A DNA stretch of 64,000 nucleotides. Origin: Variovorax boronicumulans (GTDB lineage: Bacteria > Pseudomonadota > Gammaproteobacteria > Burkholderiales > Burkholderiaceae_C). The position numbers and the translations under genes were made by a program. The notes beneath the pieces are model-generated. The model was not told where the DNA came from, did not search any database, and worked only from the letters and a program-made list of their open reading frames with translations. Shown piece after piece: positions 38,889-43,366 of the stretch. The stretch's first letter is position 1. Each line of letters starts with the position of its first letter. The stretch is taken from assembly GCF_030812215.1 (NCBI RefSeq), contig NZ_JAUSSG010000006.1:124001-188000 (forward strand). Direction: 5' to 3'.

Positions 38889-39704
38889 TCAGAACGCCAT
38901 GCCTCGAGGGCGCACGCTCACTTCGTCGCTCGTGATGGCCTGCAGGCCCGCGGCCGTGCGCACCTGCAGCTCGCCGCTCCAGGCCACACCTTCGCAGACG
39001 CCTTCGGTGCCGTCGCTCAGCACCACCTCGCGGCCGCGCAGCACATCGCGCGCGGCAAAGCGTTCGGCGAACTGCGCGAAGCCTTGCGCCTCGAAGGCGA
39101 GCACGTCGCGCACCAGCGGCTCGGCCAGTTCGCGCAGCACCTCGGGCGCAGTGGCGTCGGGGCGCCATTGGTGCAGCCATGCGGGCGGCGTGCGCATGCC
39201 GTCGGCTTCGCGCGCGCCGATGTTGATGCCGATGCCAATCACCACGTAGCGCTGCGCGCCGGGTCCGGCGGCGTGCGGCAATGCGGTTTCGATGAGGATG
39301 CCGACCAGCTTGCAGTCGTTCACCCAGATGTCGTTGGGCCACTTGAGGCCGACTTTGTGTGCGCCCGTCGGATCGAGGCTTTCGGCCACGCTGACGCCGA
39401 CGGCCAGCGACAGGCCCGACCAGTCGGCCGGCGCAAGCGGCAGGCCCAGCGAGAACAGGAGCGATGTCTGCTCCTGGCTCTGCGGCGCGCTCTGCCACGC
39501 GCGGCCGAGGCGACCACGACCGGCGGTCTGGCGCTCGGCCACCAGCAGCACGGGCTCGGTGCGCCCGGCGCGCGCGCGGCGCATCAGCTCGGTATTGGTG
39601 GAATCGATCTCGGCCACGGCCTCGACCGCGAATCCGGGCAGCAGCGTCGCCACCGACGCGGCGATCCGGTCTTCCTGCCAGGCGACCGTGGTGCTGCTGC
39701 TCAT
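38889..39704 (-). CDS. birA: Biotin--[acetyl-CoA-carboxylase] ligase
   Basis: A 271-residue ligase that adenylates biotin and attaches it to AccB. Visible blocks are EIDSTNTELMRRA, ERQTAGRGRLGRAWQS with the GRGRxGR biotinyl-AMP loop, KVGLKWPNDIWVND, KLVGILIET and GIGINIG. It has no N-terminal helix-turn-helix, so it is a mono-functional enzyme and not a biotin repressor. It starts 2 bp after the SET gene stop. Confidence 0.95.
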   Translation of the reverse strand: MSSSTTVAWQEDRIAASVATLLPGFAVEAVAEIDSTNTELMRRARAGRTEPVLLVAERQTAGRGRLGRAWQSAPQSQEQTSLLFSLGLPLAPADWSGLSLAVGVSVAESLDPTGAHKVGLKWPNDIWVNDCKLVGILIETALPHAAGPGAQRYVVIGIGINIGAREADGMRTPPAWLHQWRPDATAPEVLRELAEPLVRDVLAFEAQGFAQFAERFAARDVLRGREVVLSDGTEGVCEGVAWSGELQVRTAAGLQAITSDEVSVRPRGMAF

Positions 39705-39706
39705 GT

Positions 39707-40312
39707 TCAGTCCTTCTTGGACTTCTTCTTGTCGGCTTTCTTTTCGGCCTTCCTGGCTTCTTTTTTCTTCTCTTCTTTTTTCTCGGCCTTTTTCTTTTCA
39801 GCCTTCTTCTTGGCTTTCTTCTTCTTTTTCTTTTCTTCGTCCTCATCCTTGGGTGTCAGCAGCGTGCCGCGGCACTGCTCGGAGCCGCACCAGCAAGGAA
39901 ATTCGGACAAGAGCTTCGGCGTGTACGGCTCGTCGATGATCAGGCCGTAGTCGTAGTTGAGCTCTTCTCCTGCAGCGATGTTGCGCAGCGCCTTGATATA
40001 AACGCGCCCATCGACTTCGTCGGCCTCGCAGTTCGGCTCGCACGAGTGGTTGATCCAGCGGGCGTCGTTGCCCTTGACGTTGCCGTCGATCACGCGACCG
40101 TCGTCGATGTGGAAGTAGAAGGTGTGGTTCGGCTGGGCCGGGTCGTGCGGATGGCGGCGCAGCGCCTCTTTCCAGCTGATGAGCTCGCCCTTGTATTCGA
40201 TCAGCGTCTCGCCTTCGGCCAGGTCGTCGACGGCGAACACGCCGTTGCCGTGGACATCCGAGCGCCGCATCTGGATGCGGCGGCCGGCGAGTTGTGGGGA
40301 TTTGGAAGGCAT
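39707..40312 (-). CDS. SET-domain protein-lysine methyltransferase with lysine-rich tail
   Basis: A 201-residue protein. Residues 10-135 form a SET domain with all key motifs: SDVHGNGVFAVDDLAEGE, the SAM-binding INHSCEPNC, and the catalytic-pocket AAGEELNYDYG. The post-SET cysteines CWCGSEQCRG follow. The last 48 residues are almost wholly K, E, A and D (EEKKKKKKAKKKAEKK and on), like a nucleic-acid-binding tail. It should methylate lysines using SAM. The target is unknown, with the H1-like linker of the divergent topoisomerase an attractive but unproven candidate. Confidence 0.88.
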   Translation of the reverse strand: MPSKSPQLAGRRIQMRRSDVHGNGVFAVDDLAEGETLIEYKGELISWKEALRRHPHDPAQPNHTFYFHIDDGRVIDGNVKGNDARWINHSCEPNCEADEVDGRVYIKALRNIAAGEELNYDYGLIIDEPYTPKLLSEFPCWCGSEQCRGTLLTPKDEDEEKKKKKKAKKKAEKKKAEKKEEKKKEARKAEKKADKKKSKKD

Positions 40313-40333
40313 CGCCGAAGTCTGTTAGTTTGA

Positions 40334-40370
40334 ATATGCACACATGCGCGTGTGCGCGTGCGCACACGCG
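40334..40370. other. 37-bp perfect alternating purine-pyrimidine tract (potential Z-DNA)
   Basis: Every base from 40334 to 40370 alternates purine and pyrimidine, mainly as GC and CA/TG steps, and the segment contains the 20-bp inverted repeat CGTGTGCGC-GT-GCGCACACG (40349-40368). It sits between the divergent SET and topoisomerase III genes, 30 bp from the topB start. Such tracts adopt left-handed DNA or cruciforms under negative supercoiling. Confidence 0.75.
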
Positions 40371-40399
40371 GGAAGCCGCAGAGTATAGAGAGCCCTTAG

Positions 40400-43366
40400 A
40401 TGACAAAGACGTTGGTAATCGCAGAAAAGCCGTCGGTGGCCCAGGACATCGTCCGCGCCCTCACGCCGGTGGCCGGCAAATTCGACAAACATGACGAGCA
40501 TTTCGAGAACGACAGCTATGTCGTGACCAGCGCTGTCGGTCACCTGGTCGAAATCCAGGCGCCCGAGGAGTTCGACGTCAAGCGGGGCAAGTGGAGCTTT
40601 GCCAACCTCCCCGTGATTCCGCCGCACTTCGACCTGAAGCCGGTCGACAAGACCAAGACGCGCCTGAACGCGGTGGTCAAGCAGGCCAAGCGCAAGGACG
40701 TGACGCAGCTCATCAACGCCTGCGACGCGGGCCGCGAGGGCGAACTGATCTTCCGCCTGATCGAGCAGTACGCCGGCGGCAAGAGCCCGTTGGGCAAGCC
40801 GGTCAAGCGCCTCTGGCTGCAGTCGATGACGCCGCAGGCGATCCGCGACGGCTTCGATGCGCTGCGCACCGAAAAGCAGATGCAGGGCCTGGCCGACGCC
40901 GCGCGCTCGCGCTCGGAGGCCGACTGGCTGGTGGGCATCAACGGCACGCGCGCCATGACGGCATTCAATTCCCGCGACGGCGGCTTCTTCTTGACGACCG
41001 TGGGCCGCGTGCAGACGCCGACGCTCTCCGTCGTCGTGGAGCGCGAGGAGCAGATCCGCAAGTTCGTCTCGCGCGACTACTGGGAAATCCACGGCAGCTT
41101 CGCGGCCGAGGCCGGCCAGTACCCGGGCAAGTGGTTCAACCCCGACTGGAAGAAAGCGAATGCGCCGCTTCTGGCCAACGGCGAACCCGATGCCGAGCAG
41201 CGTGCCGACCGCGTGTGGTCCGAGCAGGAAGCCCGCGCCATCGCCGACGCCTCGCGCGGCAAGCCCGCCACCGTCACCGAAGAGAGCAAGCCCACCACGC
41301 AGGCCTCGCCCGCGCTGTTCGACCTGACCTCGCTGCAACGCGAGGCCAACGGCCGTTTCGGCTTCAGCGCCAAGACCACGCTGGCGCTGGCCCAGAGCCT
41401 GTACGAACGCCACAAGGCGCTGACCTACCCGCGTACCGATTCGCGCGCGCTGCCGGAAGACTATCTGCCGGTGGTCAAGCAGACCATGGAGATGCTCGCC
41501 AACAGCGGCATGAAGCACCTGGCGCCGTTCGCCCAGCAGGCGGTCGATGGCAACTACGTCAAGCCCAACAAGCGCATCTTCGACAACGCCAAGGTGTCGG
41601 ATCACTTCGCCATCATCCCGACGCTGCAGGCCCCGAGCGGCCTGAGCGAGGCCGAGCAGAAGCTGTATGACTTCGTGGTGCGGCGCTTCCTGTCGGTGTT
41701 CTTCCCGAGCGCCGAGCACCAGGTGACCACGCGCATCAGCACGGTGGAGCAGGGCGGCAAGAAGTATCCGTTCCGCACCGACGGCAAGGTGCTGGTCAAG
41801 CCGGGCTGGCTCGCCATCTACGGCAAGGAAGCCCAGGACGACGAGAAGGAAGACGACAAGGACGGCAAGCGCCTCGTGCCGGTGAAGCCGGGCGAGATCG
41901 TGCAGAACGAGTCGGCCGACCTCAAGGGCCTGAAGACGCGCCCGCCCGCACGCTATTCGGAAGCCACGCTGCTGGGCGCCATGGAAGGCGCCGGCAAGAC
42001 CATCGACGACGACGAGCTGCGCGAGGCCATGCAGGAGAAGGGCCTGGGCACGCCAGCCACGCGCGCGGCCACCATCGAAGGGCTGATCGCCGAGAAGTAC
42101 ATGCTGCGCGAAGGCCGCGAGCTCATTCCGACCGCCAAGGCCTTCCAGCTCATGACGCTCCTGCGCGGCCTGGGCGTGGAAGAACTCTCCAAGGCCGAAC
42201 TCACCGGCGAATGGGAATACAAGCTCGCGCAGATGGAGAAGGGCGCCCTGAGCCGCGACGCCTTCATGCGCGAGATTGCCCAGATGACGGAGCACATCGT
42301 CAAGAAGGCCAAGGAATACGACCGCGACACCGTGCCGGGCGACTACGCCACGCTCGCGACGCCATGCCCCAACTGCGGCGGCATCGTGCGCGAGAACTAC
42401 CGCCGCTACGGCTGCGTGGGCAAGAGCGGCACGGGCGAGGACGCCTGCGGCTTCTCGTTCGGCAAGTCGCCGGCCGGGCGCACCTTCGAGGTGGCCGAGG
42501 CCGAGGCGCTCCTGCGCGACAAGCACATCGGTCCGCTGGAAGGCTTCCGCTCCAAGGCGGGCTGGCCCTTCACCTCGGAGATCGTGCTCAAGTACGACGA
42601 CGAGGCCAAGAACTGGAAGCTGGAGTTCGACTTCGGCGACGACAAGAACGGCGACACCGGCGAGATCGTCGATTTCAGCGAGCAGGACACCGTGGGCCCA
42701 TGCCCGGTGTGCGGCGCGCCGGTGTTCGAGCATGGCAGCAACTATGTCTGCGAGAAGTCGGTGCCGACCAACGCGCAGCCGACGCCCAGCTGCACCTTCA
42801 AGACCGGCAAGATCATCCTGCAGCAGCCGGTGGAGCGCGCGCAGATGGAAAAGCTGCTCGCCACCGGCAAGACCGACCTGCTCGACAAGTTCGTGAGCAT
42901 GCGCACGCGCCGCGCCTTCAAGGCCTTCCTCACCTGGAACGCCGAAGAGGGCAAGGTGACCTTCGAGTTCGCGCCGCGCGAAGGCGGCAGCAAATTCCCG
43001 CCGCGCAAGACCTTCGGCAAGCCGGCCGCCAAGACCGCGGCCGCGAAGAAGGTCGCGGCGAAAAAGACGCCGGCCGCCAAGAAGGCGCCGGCCGCGAAGA
43101 AGGCCGCCGCGCCGCGCAAGCCCGGCGCGGGCTTGAAGCCCAGCGACTCGCTGGCCGCGGTGATCGGCGCCGAGCCGGTGGCGCGCACCGAGGTCATCAA
43201 GAAGCTGTGGGACTACATCAAGGCCAACGGCCTGCAGGACGCGACCAACAAGCGCGCGATCAATGCCGATGCGAAGTTGAAGCCCGTGTTCGGCAAGGAC
43301 CAGGTGACGATGTTCGAACTCGCGGGCATCGTGGGCAAGCACCTCTCGGCGCCCGACGCGGCCTGA
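40400..43366 (+). CDS. topB: DNA topoisomerase III with H1-like linker and C-terminal SWIB domain
   Basis: A 988-residue type IA topoisomerase. The Toprim domain starts at TLVIAEKPSVAQDIV (acidic triad including ACDAGREGELIF). The catalytic Tyr is near residue 342 in LTYPRTDSRALP. Zinc-ribbon repeats follow at about 655-690 (CPNCGGIVR) and 770-800 (CPVCGAPVFEHG). Residues 868-910 are an Ala/Lys/Pro-rich linker like histone H1 (KKVAAKKTPAAKKAPAAKK). Residues 911-988 form a SWIB/MDM2 domain (VIKKLWDYIKANGLQD, ALPVFGKD-like region). E. coli TopB has 653 residues, so about 300 are added. It should decatenate and relax negatively supercoiled DNA. The SWIB part recalls chlamydial TopA. Confidence 0.95.
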   Translation: MTKTLVIAEKPSVAQDIVRALTPVAGKFDKHDEHFENDSYVVTSAVGHLVEIQAPEEFDVKRGKWSFANLPVIPPHFDLKPVDKTKTRLNAVVKQAKRKDVTQLINACDAGREGELIFRLIEQYAGGKSPLGKPVKRLWLQSMTPQAIRDGFDALRTEKQMQGLADAARSRSEADWLVGINGTRAMTAFNSRDGGFFLTTVGRVQTPTLSVVVEREEQIRKFVSRDYWEIHGSFAAEAGQYPGKWFNPDWKKANAPLLANGEPDAEQRADRVWSEQEARAIADASRGKPATVTEESKPTTQASPALFDLTSLQREANGRFGFSAKTTLALAQSLYERHKALTYPRTDSRALPEDYLPVVKQTMEMLANSGMKHLAPFAQQAVDGNYVKPNKRIFDNAKVSDHFAIIPTLQAPSGLSEAEQKLYDFVVRRFLSVFFPSAEHQVTTRISTVEQGGKKYPFRTDGKVLVKPGWLAIYGKEAQDDEKEDDKDGKRLVPVKPGEIVQNESADLKGLKTRPPARYSEATLLGAMEGAGKTIDDDELREAMQEKGLGTPATRAATIEGLIAEKYMLREGRELIPTAKAFQLMTLLRGLGVEELSKAELTGEWEYKLAQMEKGALSRDAFMREIAQMTEHIVKKAKEYDRDTVPGDYATLATPCPNCGGIVRENYRRYGCVGKSGTGEDACGFSFGKSPAGRTFEVAEAEALLRDKHIGPLEGFRSKAGWPFTSEIVLKYDDEAKNWKLEFDFGDDKNGDTGEIVDFSEQDTVGPCPVCGAPVFEHGSNYVCEKSVPTNAQPTPSCTFKTGKIILQQPVERAQMEKLLATGKTDLLDKFVSMRTRRAFKAFLTWNAEEGKVTFEFAPREGGSKFPPRKTFGKPAAKTAAAKKVAAKKTPAAKKAPAAKKAAAPRKPGAGLKPSDSLAAVIGAEPVARTEVIKKLWDYIKANGLQDATNKRAINADAKLKPVFGKDQVTMFELAGIVGKHLSAPDAA

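Follow-up and report, generated by a model that had tools for sequence, protein, structure and literature searches.

A family-conserved alternating purine-pyrimidine tract, predicted to favour Z-DNA, between the divergent topB and SET genes of Comamonadaceae

The stretch of DNA analysed here (hereafter the window) comprises 64,000 nucleotides of a Variovorax boronicumulans genome (6.75 Mb in 30 contigs) and carries, head to head, a gene for a SET-domain protein and topB, which encodes a topoisomerase III with a C-terminal SWIB domain. A common gap of 87 bp (40313-40399) separates the two facing start codons, and it contains a 37-nt tract of alternating purines and pyrimidines (40334-40370) that is predicted to form Z-DNA. 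The SET gene (39707-40312, minus strand), recognised from its open reading frame (ORF), Pfam, solved relatives and conserved residues, specifies a KMT2-like protein of 201 residues with a post-SET cysteine cluster. Its SET domain (PF00856) spans residues 22-123 (39944-40249, minus strand), and a lysine-rich C-terminal tail, lineage-specific and unconserved, covers approximately residues 154-201 (39707-39853, minus strand). Directly 3' of the SET gene and on the same strand lies birA, the gene for biotin ligase (38889-39704). On the plus strand, topB (40400-43366) encodes a protein of 988 residues, including an Ala/Lys/Pro-rich linker at approximately residues 869-908 (43004-43123) and the SWIB domain (PF02201) at residues 912-982 (43133-43345). 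The alternating tract includes a perfect 11-bp inverted repeat (40347-40370) and is accompanied by two conserved elements, whose positions were fixed by a search expression. Specifically, the left, SET-side element GTTAGTTTGAA (40324-40334) has the approximate family form GnTAnnTTGAA, occurs in 104 of the 107 family gaps described below and may serve as part of a core promoter; the right, topB-side element AGTATAGA (40382-40389, plus strand), mostly ATTGTAG in the family, occurs in 105 of the 107 gaps and is a putative -10-like element.

An earlier note on this DNA had described a SET methyltransferase facing a SWIB-bearing TopB, and the ORFs together with the Pfam and NCBIfam matches confirm that description; the Ala/Lys/Pro repeat linker of TopB and the lysine-rich SET tail that it pointed out are likewise both present in the sequence. 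The region that it covered spans the 87-bp gap with the alternating tract, which is the oddest part of that region and went unmentioned there.

The conservation of the gene pair was followed in 120 genomes, one per genus code, of a family that we take as Comamonadaceae because its named relatives are Variovorax, Xenophilus, Polaromonas, Ramlibacter, Hydrogenophaga and the like. With cut-offs of E <= 1e-40 for SET and E <= 1e-200 for TopB, SET is found in 111 and TopB in 114 of these genomes. In 106 of the 120, both are found on a single contig; in 105 of these 106 they are divergent within 1 kb, and in one genome they lie 8 kb apart. The other family genomes have SET and TopB on separate contigs (two genomes), SET only (three), TopB only (six) or neither (three). 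Among the 80 named loci, topB is in reach in 75, and in all 75 it is divergent and within 720 bp of SET. The adjacency, which the earlier note had left to be checked beyond the genus, is therefore a property of the family and not of Variovorax only. Additionally, a sample of the wider order Burkholderiales (399 genomes) contains SET relatives in 98 genomes, TopB in 195 and SWIB in 148, and outside the family SET and topB occur on one contig, 0.7-125 kb apart, in at least 18 genomes.

In the 6.75-Mb Variovorax genome, no alternating run other than the 37-nt tract reaches 27 nt, the bound being set there because the scan patterns start with a purine and miss pyrimidine-first runs of exactly 26 or 20 nt. 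Six further sites in this genome reach 20 nt, the longest being approximately 22 nt, and the whole-genome scan thereby rejects alternating runs as a general property of the genome. Across the family, we compared 107 gaps, namely 103 of the 105 divergent pairs (G438 and G501, at contig ends, were omitted) and four more from the order-wide sample (G350, G377, G133 and G093), with a median length of 123 bp and a range of 29-713 bp. The longest alternating run of the whole locus falls inside the gap in 95 of the 107 loci. In particular, runs of at least 20 nt occur in 71 of the 107 gaps (17.4 kb in total) versus none in the remaining 638 kb, where the longest run is 16 nt, and runs of at least 25 nt occur in 53 gaps and nowhere outside gaps; alternating runs are thus also rejected as a general property of the sampled family loci, whose DNA is mostly coding. 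Tracts reach up to 56 nt and are at least 20 nt long in two thirds of the genera, and the mean longest run of 24.5 nt compares with 9.6 nt in dinucleotide-preserving shuffles (106 gaps; one gap shorter than 30 nt was omitted).

No two of the 106 tracts compared have the same sequence, and none is a simple repeat. Slippage of simple repeats was rejected as their origin, the pure-dinucleotide share of the 71 tracts of at least 20 nt having a median of 0.25 and a maximum of 0.44, and a hairpin or palindrome was rejected as the conserved feature, the mean arm being 5.8 versus 6.0 in alternation-keeping shuffles of the same 71 tracts. Counted from the SET-side element, the purine/pyrimidine phase is locked over approximately 30 positions, along which the letters vary. 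Pairwise comparison of 34 close-relative loci (L224 omitted), in which the pairs are non-independent and the flank alignment is loose, gives 3311 transitions to 303 transversions within the tract (8% transversions), versus 3452:4831 (58%) and 4148:6822 (62%) in the flanks, 12327:14391 (54%) at SET third positions and 2588:9128 (78%) at fourfold sites, a large contrast. Selection seems to retain the alternation itself, not the letters.

Upstream regions of topB outside the family (20 SET-less and 20 SET-bearing genomes) contain a run of at least 20 nt in one case of 40, which rejects a long run as a general property of topB promoters; the sole case is a 21-nt tract upstream of topB at L198 (G317, another family). 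Within the family, six gaps exceed 600 bp and have runs of 8, 8, 18, 33, 35 and 35 nt. In two of them (L089, 648 bp, and L101, 713 bp), an ORF between SET and topB appears thioredoxin-like by eye (WCPFC in L101), and the longest run is 8 nt.

Alternating purine-pyrimidine DNA is described as able to flip under negative superhelicity in a passage of PMC3024258, and such patterns are often under-represented in betaproteobacteria according to part of PMC4060949, which makes a conserved long tract more telling. The transition from the B to the Z form was modelled with energies taken from the former source, as a one-run competition among sites over 4-5 kb. At a superhelical density (sigma) of -0.04, the gap in the window is predicted to be 98% Z. 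For the 107 family gaps, the median predicted Z fraction is 0.84 at -0.04 and 0.99 at -0.045, with more than half of the gap in the Z form in 83 and 100 loci, respectively, and the gap makes up approximately 4% of the modelled length. Applied to the 40 regions upstream of topB from other families, the model places one of them mostly in the Z form. Elsewhere in the window, 14 further 4-kb tiles also contain a place predicted to go over to Z, with values of 0.71-0.99 at -0.045 and lower ones, 0.17-0.78, at -0.04. Having a long alternation that favours the B-Z transition, the tract is a predicted Z-DNA element.

The window SET protein matches the Pfam SET family over residues 22-123 with E = 2e-23 and 83.3 bits against a curated cut-off of 22.4, and its best solved relative is KMT2A (MLL1; 4e-26). 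Among the matches listed for the best 80 loci, it is 97-98% identical to the SET proteins of V. boronicumulans, V. beijingensis and V. paradoxus. Residues N88, H89, C91, Y122, C140, C142 and C147 are each present in at least 99% of 108 rows and are invariant in a 29-row alignment. They belong to the motifs NH(S/A)C, ELxYDYG and post-SET CxCx4C, which we take to be the catalytic and post-SET signatures of SET enzymes, and all of them are in place. Intact catalytic and post-SET residues favour protein-lysine methylation, and the protein is most likely, judging from its sequence, a true protein-lysine methyltransferase whose substrates are basic nucleoid proteins of the cell itself (the Ala/Lys/Pro-rich SWIB protein, the HC2-like protein and perhaps TopB). 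Most SET proteins stop shortly past the post-SET cysteines, with a median tail of 12 residues. A lysine-rich tail (at least 25 residues, at least 20% Lys) is present in 13 of 106 proteins, two of the 108 rows having been omitted because they have no tail anchor; all 13 stand opposite a SWIB-fused TopB, and the character changes state at least 11 times on the TopB tree. A conserved substrate or docking role of the tail was therefore rejected. An AlphaFold model of the protein was of poor quality and was set aside (predicted local distance difference test, pLDDT, 53.9; predicted template modelling score, pTM, 0.37). The same genome has a second, distant SET protein (L002 1429-1974; match C2:319479-319892) of 181 residues, which has an NHAC variant, retains CxCx4C and is 43% identical to the window SET over the matched part.

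TopB matches four Pfam families at E <= 0.001: Toprim, Topoisom_bac (the catalytic domain), Toprim_Crpt (C-terminal repeats) and SWIB (1.3e-25, residues 912-982). It also matches the NCBIfam model NF011313/PRK14724 (DNA topoisomerase III) over residues 1-983 of 988 with 1994.3 bits against a cut-off of 1088, so that the SWIB-topoisomerase III fusion is already a named model. The earlier note had called the linker H1-like; its composition bears this out, and none of the four families is H1-like, neither a linker-histone nor an HC2 profile matching the linker at that threshold. The H1 resemblance is compositional. SWIB is fused in 56 of the 112 Comamonadaceae TopBs read, with at least four state changes on the TopB tree (115 rows). 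Unfused TopBs also tend to have Ala/Lys/Pro-rich tails (the final 45 residues contain a median of 22% Lys and a minimum of 7%, n = 53), and such tails occur in three TopBs of other families (L058-L060; two strong, one weak) and, by eye, in three of four SET-less Comamonadaceae genomes. The tails on unfused and other-family TopBs suggest that the tail is older than the SWIB fusion. On the SWIB tree, one change separates the 56 fused from 12 stand-alone Comamonadaceae domains. In the Variovorax genome, a stand-alone SWIB protein of up to 155 residues (L289, C2, match 400321-400536) has long AKKAAPAKK-type repeats, and its Ala/Lys/Pro-repeat arm before the SWIB domain is longer than that of TopB. 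The same genome encodes an HC2-like, histone H1-type protein (L287, C8:75104-75619; 70.7 bits versus a cut-off of 40), and an Hc1 profile search of it gave no match. Ala/Lys/Pro-rich nucleoid proteins would be the likeliest SET substrates, TopB being one candidate of several.

We propose that the gap is a family-wide, torsion-sensitive bidirectional promoter module, with topB on one side and SET and birA on the other, a reading to which we assign a probability of roughly 45%. It is grounded in the gene order, the conserved alternation, the predicted B-Z susceptibility and the intact SET motifs, and from these we infer the promoters, the Z-DNA in vivo, the regulation and the SET substrates. Specifically, topB would be transcribed from one side of the gap, and SET and birA from the other; the two conserved elements look like -10 regions that point outward, and the tract would cover both presumed -35 regions. 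In the window (40324-40399), the presumed -10 elements lie very near both start codons, and the mRNAs are perhaps nearly leaderless. According to the twin-domain model, divergent transcription concentrates negative supercoiling between the genes, and by focusing it in the gap would create the condition for a B-Z flip. The tract would then flip to left-handed Z-DNA and soak up torsion, the flip would alter the access of RNA polymerase at both promoters, and the output of topoisomerase III and SET would follow local supercoiling, up or down. The Z-prone pattern that the family keeps between topB and SET suggests such a twist-sensing switch. A further-reaching version, in which the switch sets topoisomerase III and SET jointly, and SET marks Ala/Lys/Pro-rich nucleoid proteins (the TopB tail, the stand-alone SWIB protein and the HC2-like protein) so as to close a supercoiling-methylation feedback loop, appears to us quite improbable.

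Several observations weigh against the promoter-module reading. A sigma-70 consensus site was sought in the gap and not found, so that the promoters remain presumed ones. A perfect 20-nt run is absent from 36 of the 107 gaps, the run is below 15 nt in 15, a few gaps equal their shuffles, and among the 75 named loci 58 have, no farther than 300 bp from topB, a run that reaches 20 nt; when the gaps are scored by the 20-nt cut-off, the TopB tree requires at least 31 changes of state. Most of the DNA that served as control outside the gaps is coding, and the scan of the own genome is therefore the better control for intergenic DNA. In the same anchored gaps, no phase lock was found when positions were counted from the topB-side element. 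A cruder estimate, made site by site with other energy values, sets the gaps apart only modestly, giving a median of 0.040 for the gaps versus 0.045 for the rest, with the gap as best site in 91 of 107 loci, and in the window 0.0391 for the gap versus 0.0400 for a coding site at 36102. In the four SET-less family genomes, the runs measure 21 and 17 nt or fail to reach 12 nt, and the topB that lies 8 kb from SET has no alternating run of at least 12 nt upstream. Three of these four SET-less genomes and the genome with separated genes (four of five) are nevertheless predicted to be mostly Z at -0.045, which implies that the element goes with the topB promoter region of the family and not strictly with SET.

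The gene order could also reflect plain synteny, with SET belonging to birA, topB an incidental divergent neighbour, and SET and TopB functionally untied. In 106 of the 108 Comamonadaceae loci with SET, birA adjoins it on the same strand, birA itself faces topB in all four SET-less family loci read, and SET still stands beside birA in the genome in which it is 8 kb from topB. Outside the family, however, TopB is present in 70 of 74 SET-bearing genomes versus 113 of 313 others (kinship ignored; SET matches with E above approximately 1e-26 not taken as SET-bearing), and none of eight SET loci there has a birA match within the stretches examined. We regard this account as a serious contender, if on balance doubtful. 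The tract itself may never turn into Z-DNA in the cell and may instead be conserved as a stiff spacer between promoters or as a binding site for a protein that recognises the shape of the DNA or short GCGCAC-type words. Such a role is consistent with the fixed distance between the tract and the SET-side element and with the excess of two words over alternation-preserving shuffles, CGCACGCA being present in 36 of the 71 tracts (18.3 expected) and GCACGCAC in 32 (18.8 expected). Most listed words, in contrast, stay near expectation, inverted repeats are not enriched, and the purine/pyrimidine class is conserved more than the letters; we consider this role rather unlikely.

Two further accounts concern what SET acts on. 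The earlier note had suggested that SET may modify the lysine-rich TopB linker or other basic nucleoid proteins; methylation of the linker would tune the DNA binding of TopB. The family-wide adjacency and the intact catalytic motifs are in keeping with linker methylation, as are two precedents described in part of PMC3980110, in which Hc1 was methylated by a SET protein of Chlamydia and MC1-alpha by one from an archaeon. On the other hand, the pairing is independent of SWIB (with only 56 of 112 TopBs fused, the fusion was rejected as its cause), the SET tail is labile, other Ala/Lys/Pro-rich or H1-like proteins are present, and the chlamydial results on Hc1 conflict, its methylation having been unseen with NUE according to excerpts of PMC6426960. 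Because SET is equally tied to birA, adjacency by itself says little in favour of an action of SET on TopB. The family-wide pairing supports part of the earlier reading, the proposal that the linker is the substrate finds no support, and we judge this account improbable. Alternatively, SET might act outside the nucleoid, as an exported histone-modifying effector of the BtSET/LegAS4 type or as a small-molecule methyltransferase of the BurB type, since passages of PMC7819608 and PMC12542666 report SET proteins of either kind from bacteria and the AnkI/LegAS4 model gives a match, albeit a weak one (39 bits, far under the cut-off of 550). The presence of SET in 111 of 120 family genera, adjoining a housekeeping gene, and its KMT2-like post-SET cysteines argue the other way, and we hold an action outside the nucleoid to be very improbable.

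The SET protein, topoisomerase III and the SWIB fusion are of known kinds. Like KMT2/MLL proteins, the window protein has a SET domain and post-SET cysteines that align; unlike them, it is small, stand-alone and bacterial, with its own invariant residues W47, H54-P55, H63-F65 and F67, the majority of them replaced in the aligned KMT2A sequence. TopB shares the architecture of PRK14724 over residues 1-983. The nearest parallel is the chlamydial SWIB-TopA with SET. Judged by published descriptions alone, the chlamydial SWIB-topoisomerase I (CT643) likewise has a flexible region and a C-terminal SWIB domain (PMC12445093, in part), and Chlamydia also has a SET protein (NUE/cpnSET) and a small SWIB protein, as here (parts of PMC12445093 and PMC6426960). 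Here, in contrast, the enzyme is topoisomerase III and not I, the lineage is not one of intracellular parasites, and SET adjoins the topoisomerase gene. A passage of the same 2025 paper (PMC12445093) states that SWIB-containing TopA is absent beyond Chlamydia; the present locus shows SWIB fused to a topoisomerase outside Chlamydia, and to one of a different class.

Judged by the papers listed in our searches, what is new is the family-conserved alternating tract in the shared topB/SET gap. Supercoiling-sensitive promoters and upstream Z-DNA-forming sequences, as described in part of PMC3024258, resemble the gap in their alternating purine-pyrimidine DNA; the gap differs from known Z-forming promoters in that its tract is kept in most of approximately 100 genera, between a topoisomerase and a methyltransferase gene. 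Among the titles and abstract openings listed, our literature searches on SWIB found no paper on the PRK14724 architecture, its promoter or its neighbour, and those among open-licence papers found none on this locus, on a Z-DNA topB promoter or on any topoisomerase promoter with a conserved alternating tract. Whether bacteria regulate genes through Z-DNA is a long-standing question for which few natural test cases are known. The locus offers a natural tract that is kept by alternation and not by letters, where transcription-driven negative supercoiling should peak.

Finally, in five genomes of another Burkholderiales family (f32; L053-L057), SET lies beside a conserved gene pair that appears by eye to encode a response regulator and a sensor kinase, and this pair (clusters 3 and 4) is also found near SET-birA in several Comamonadaceae.

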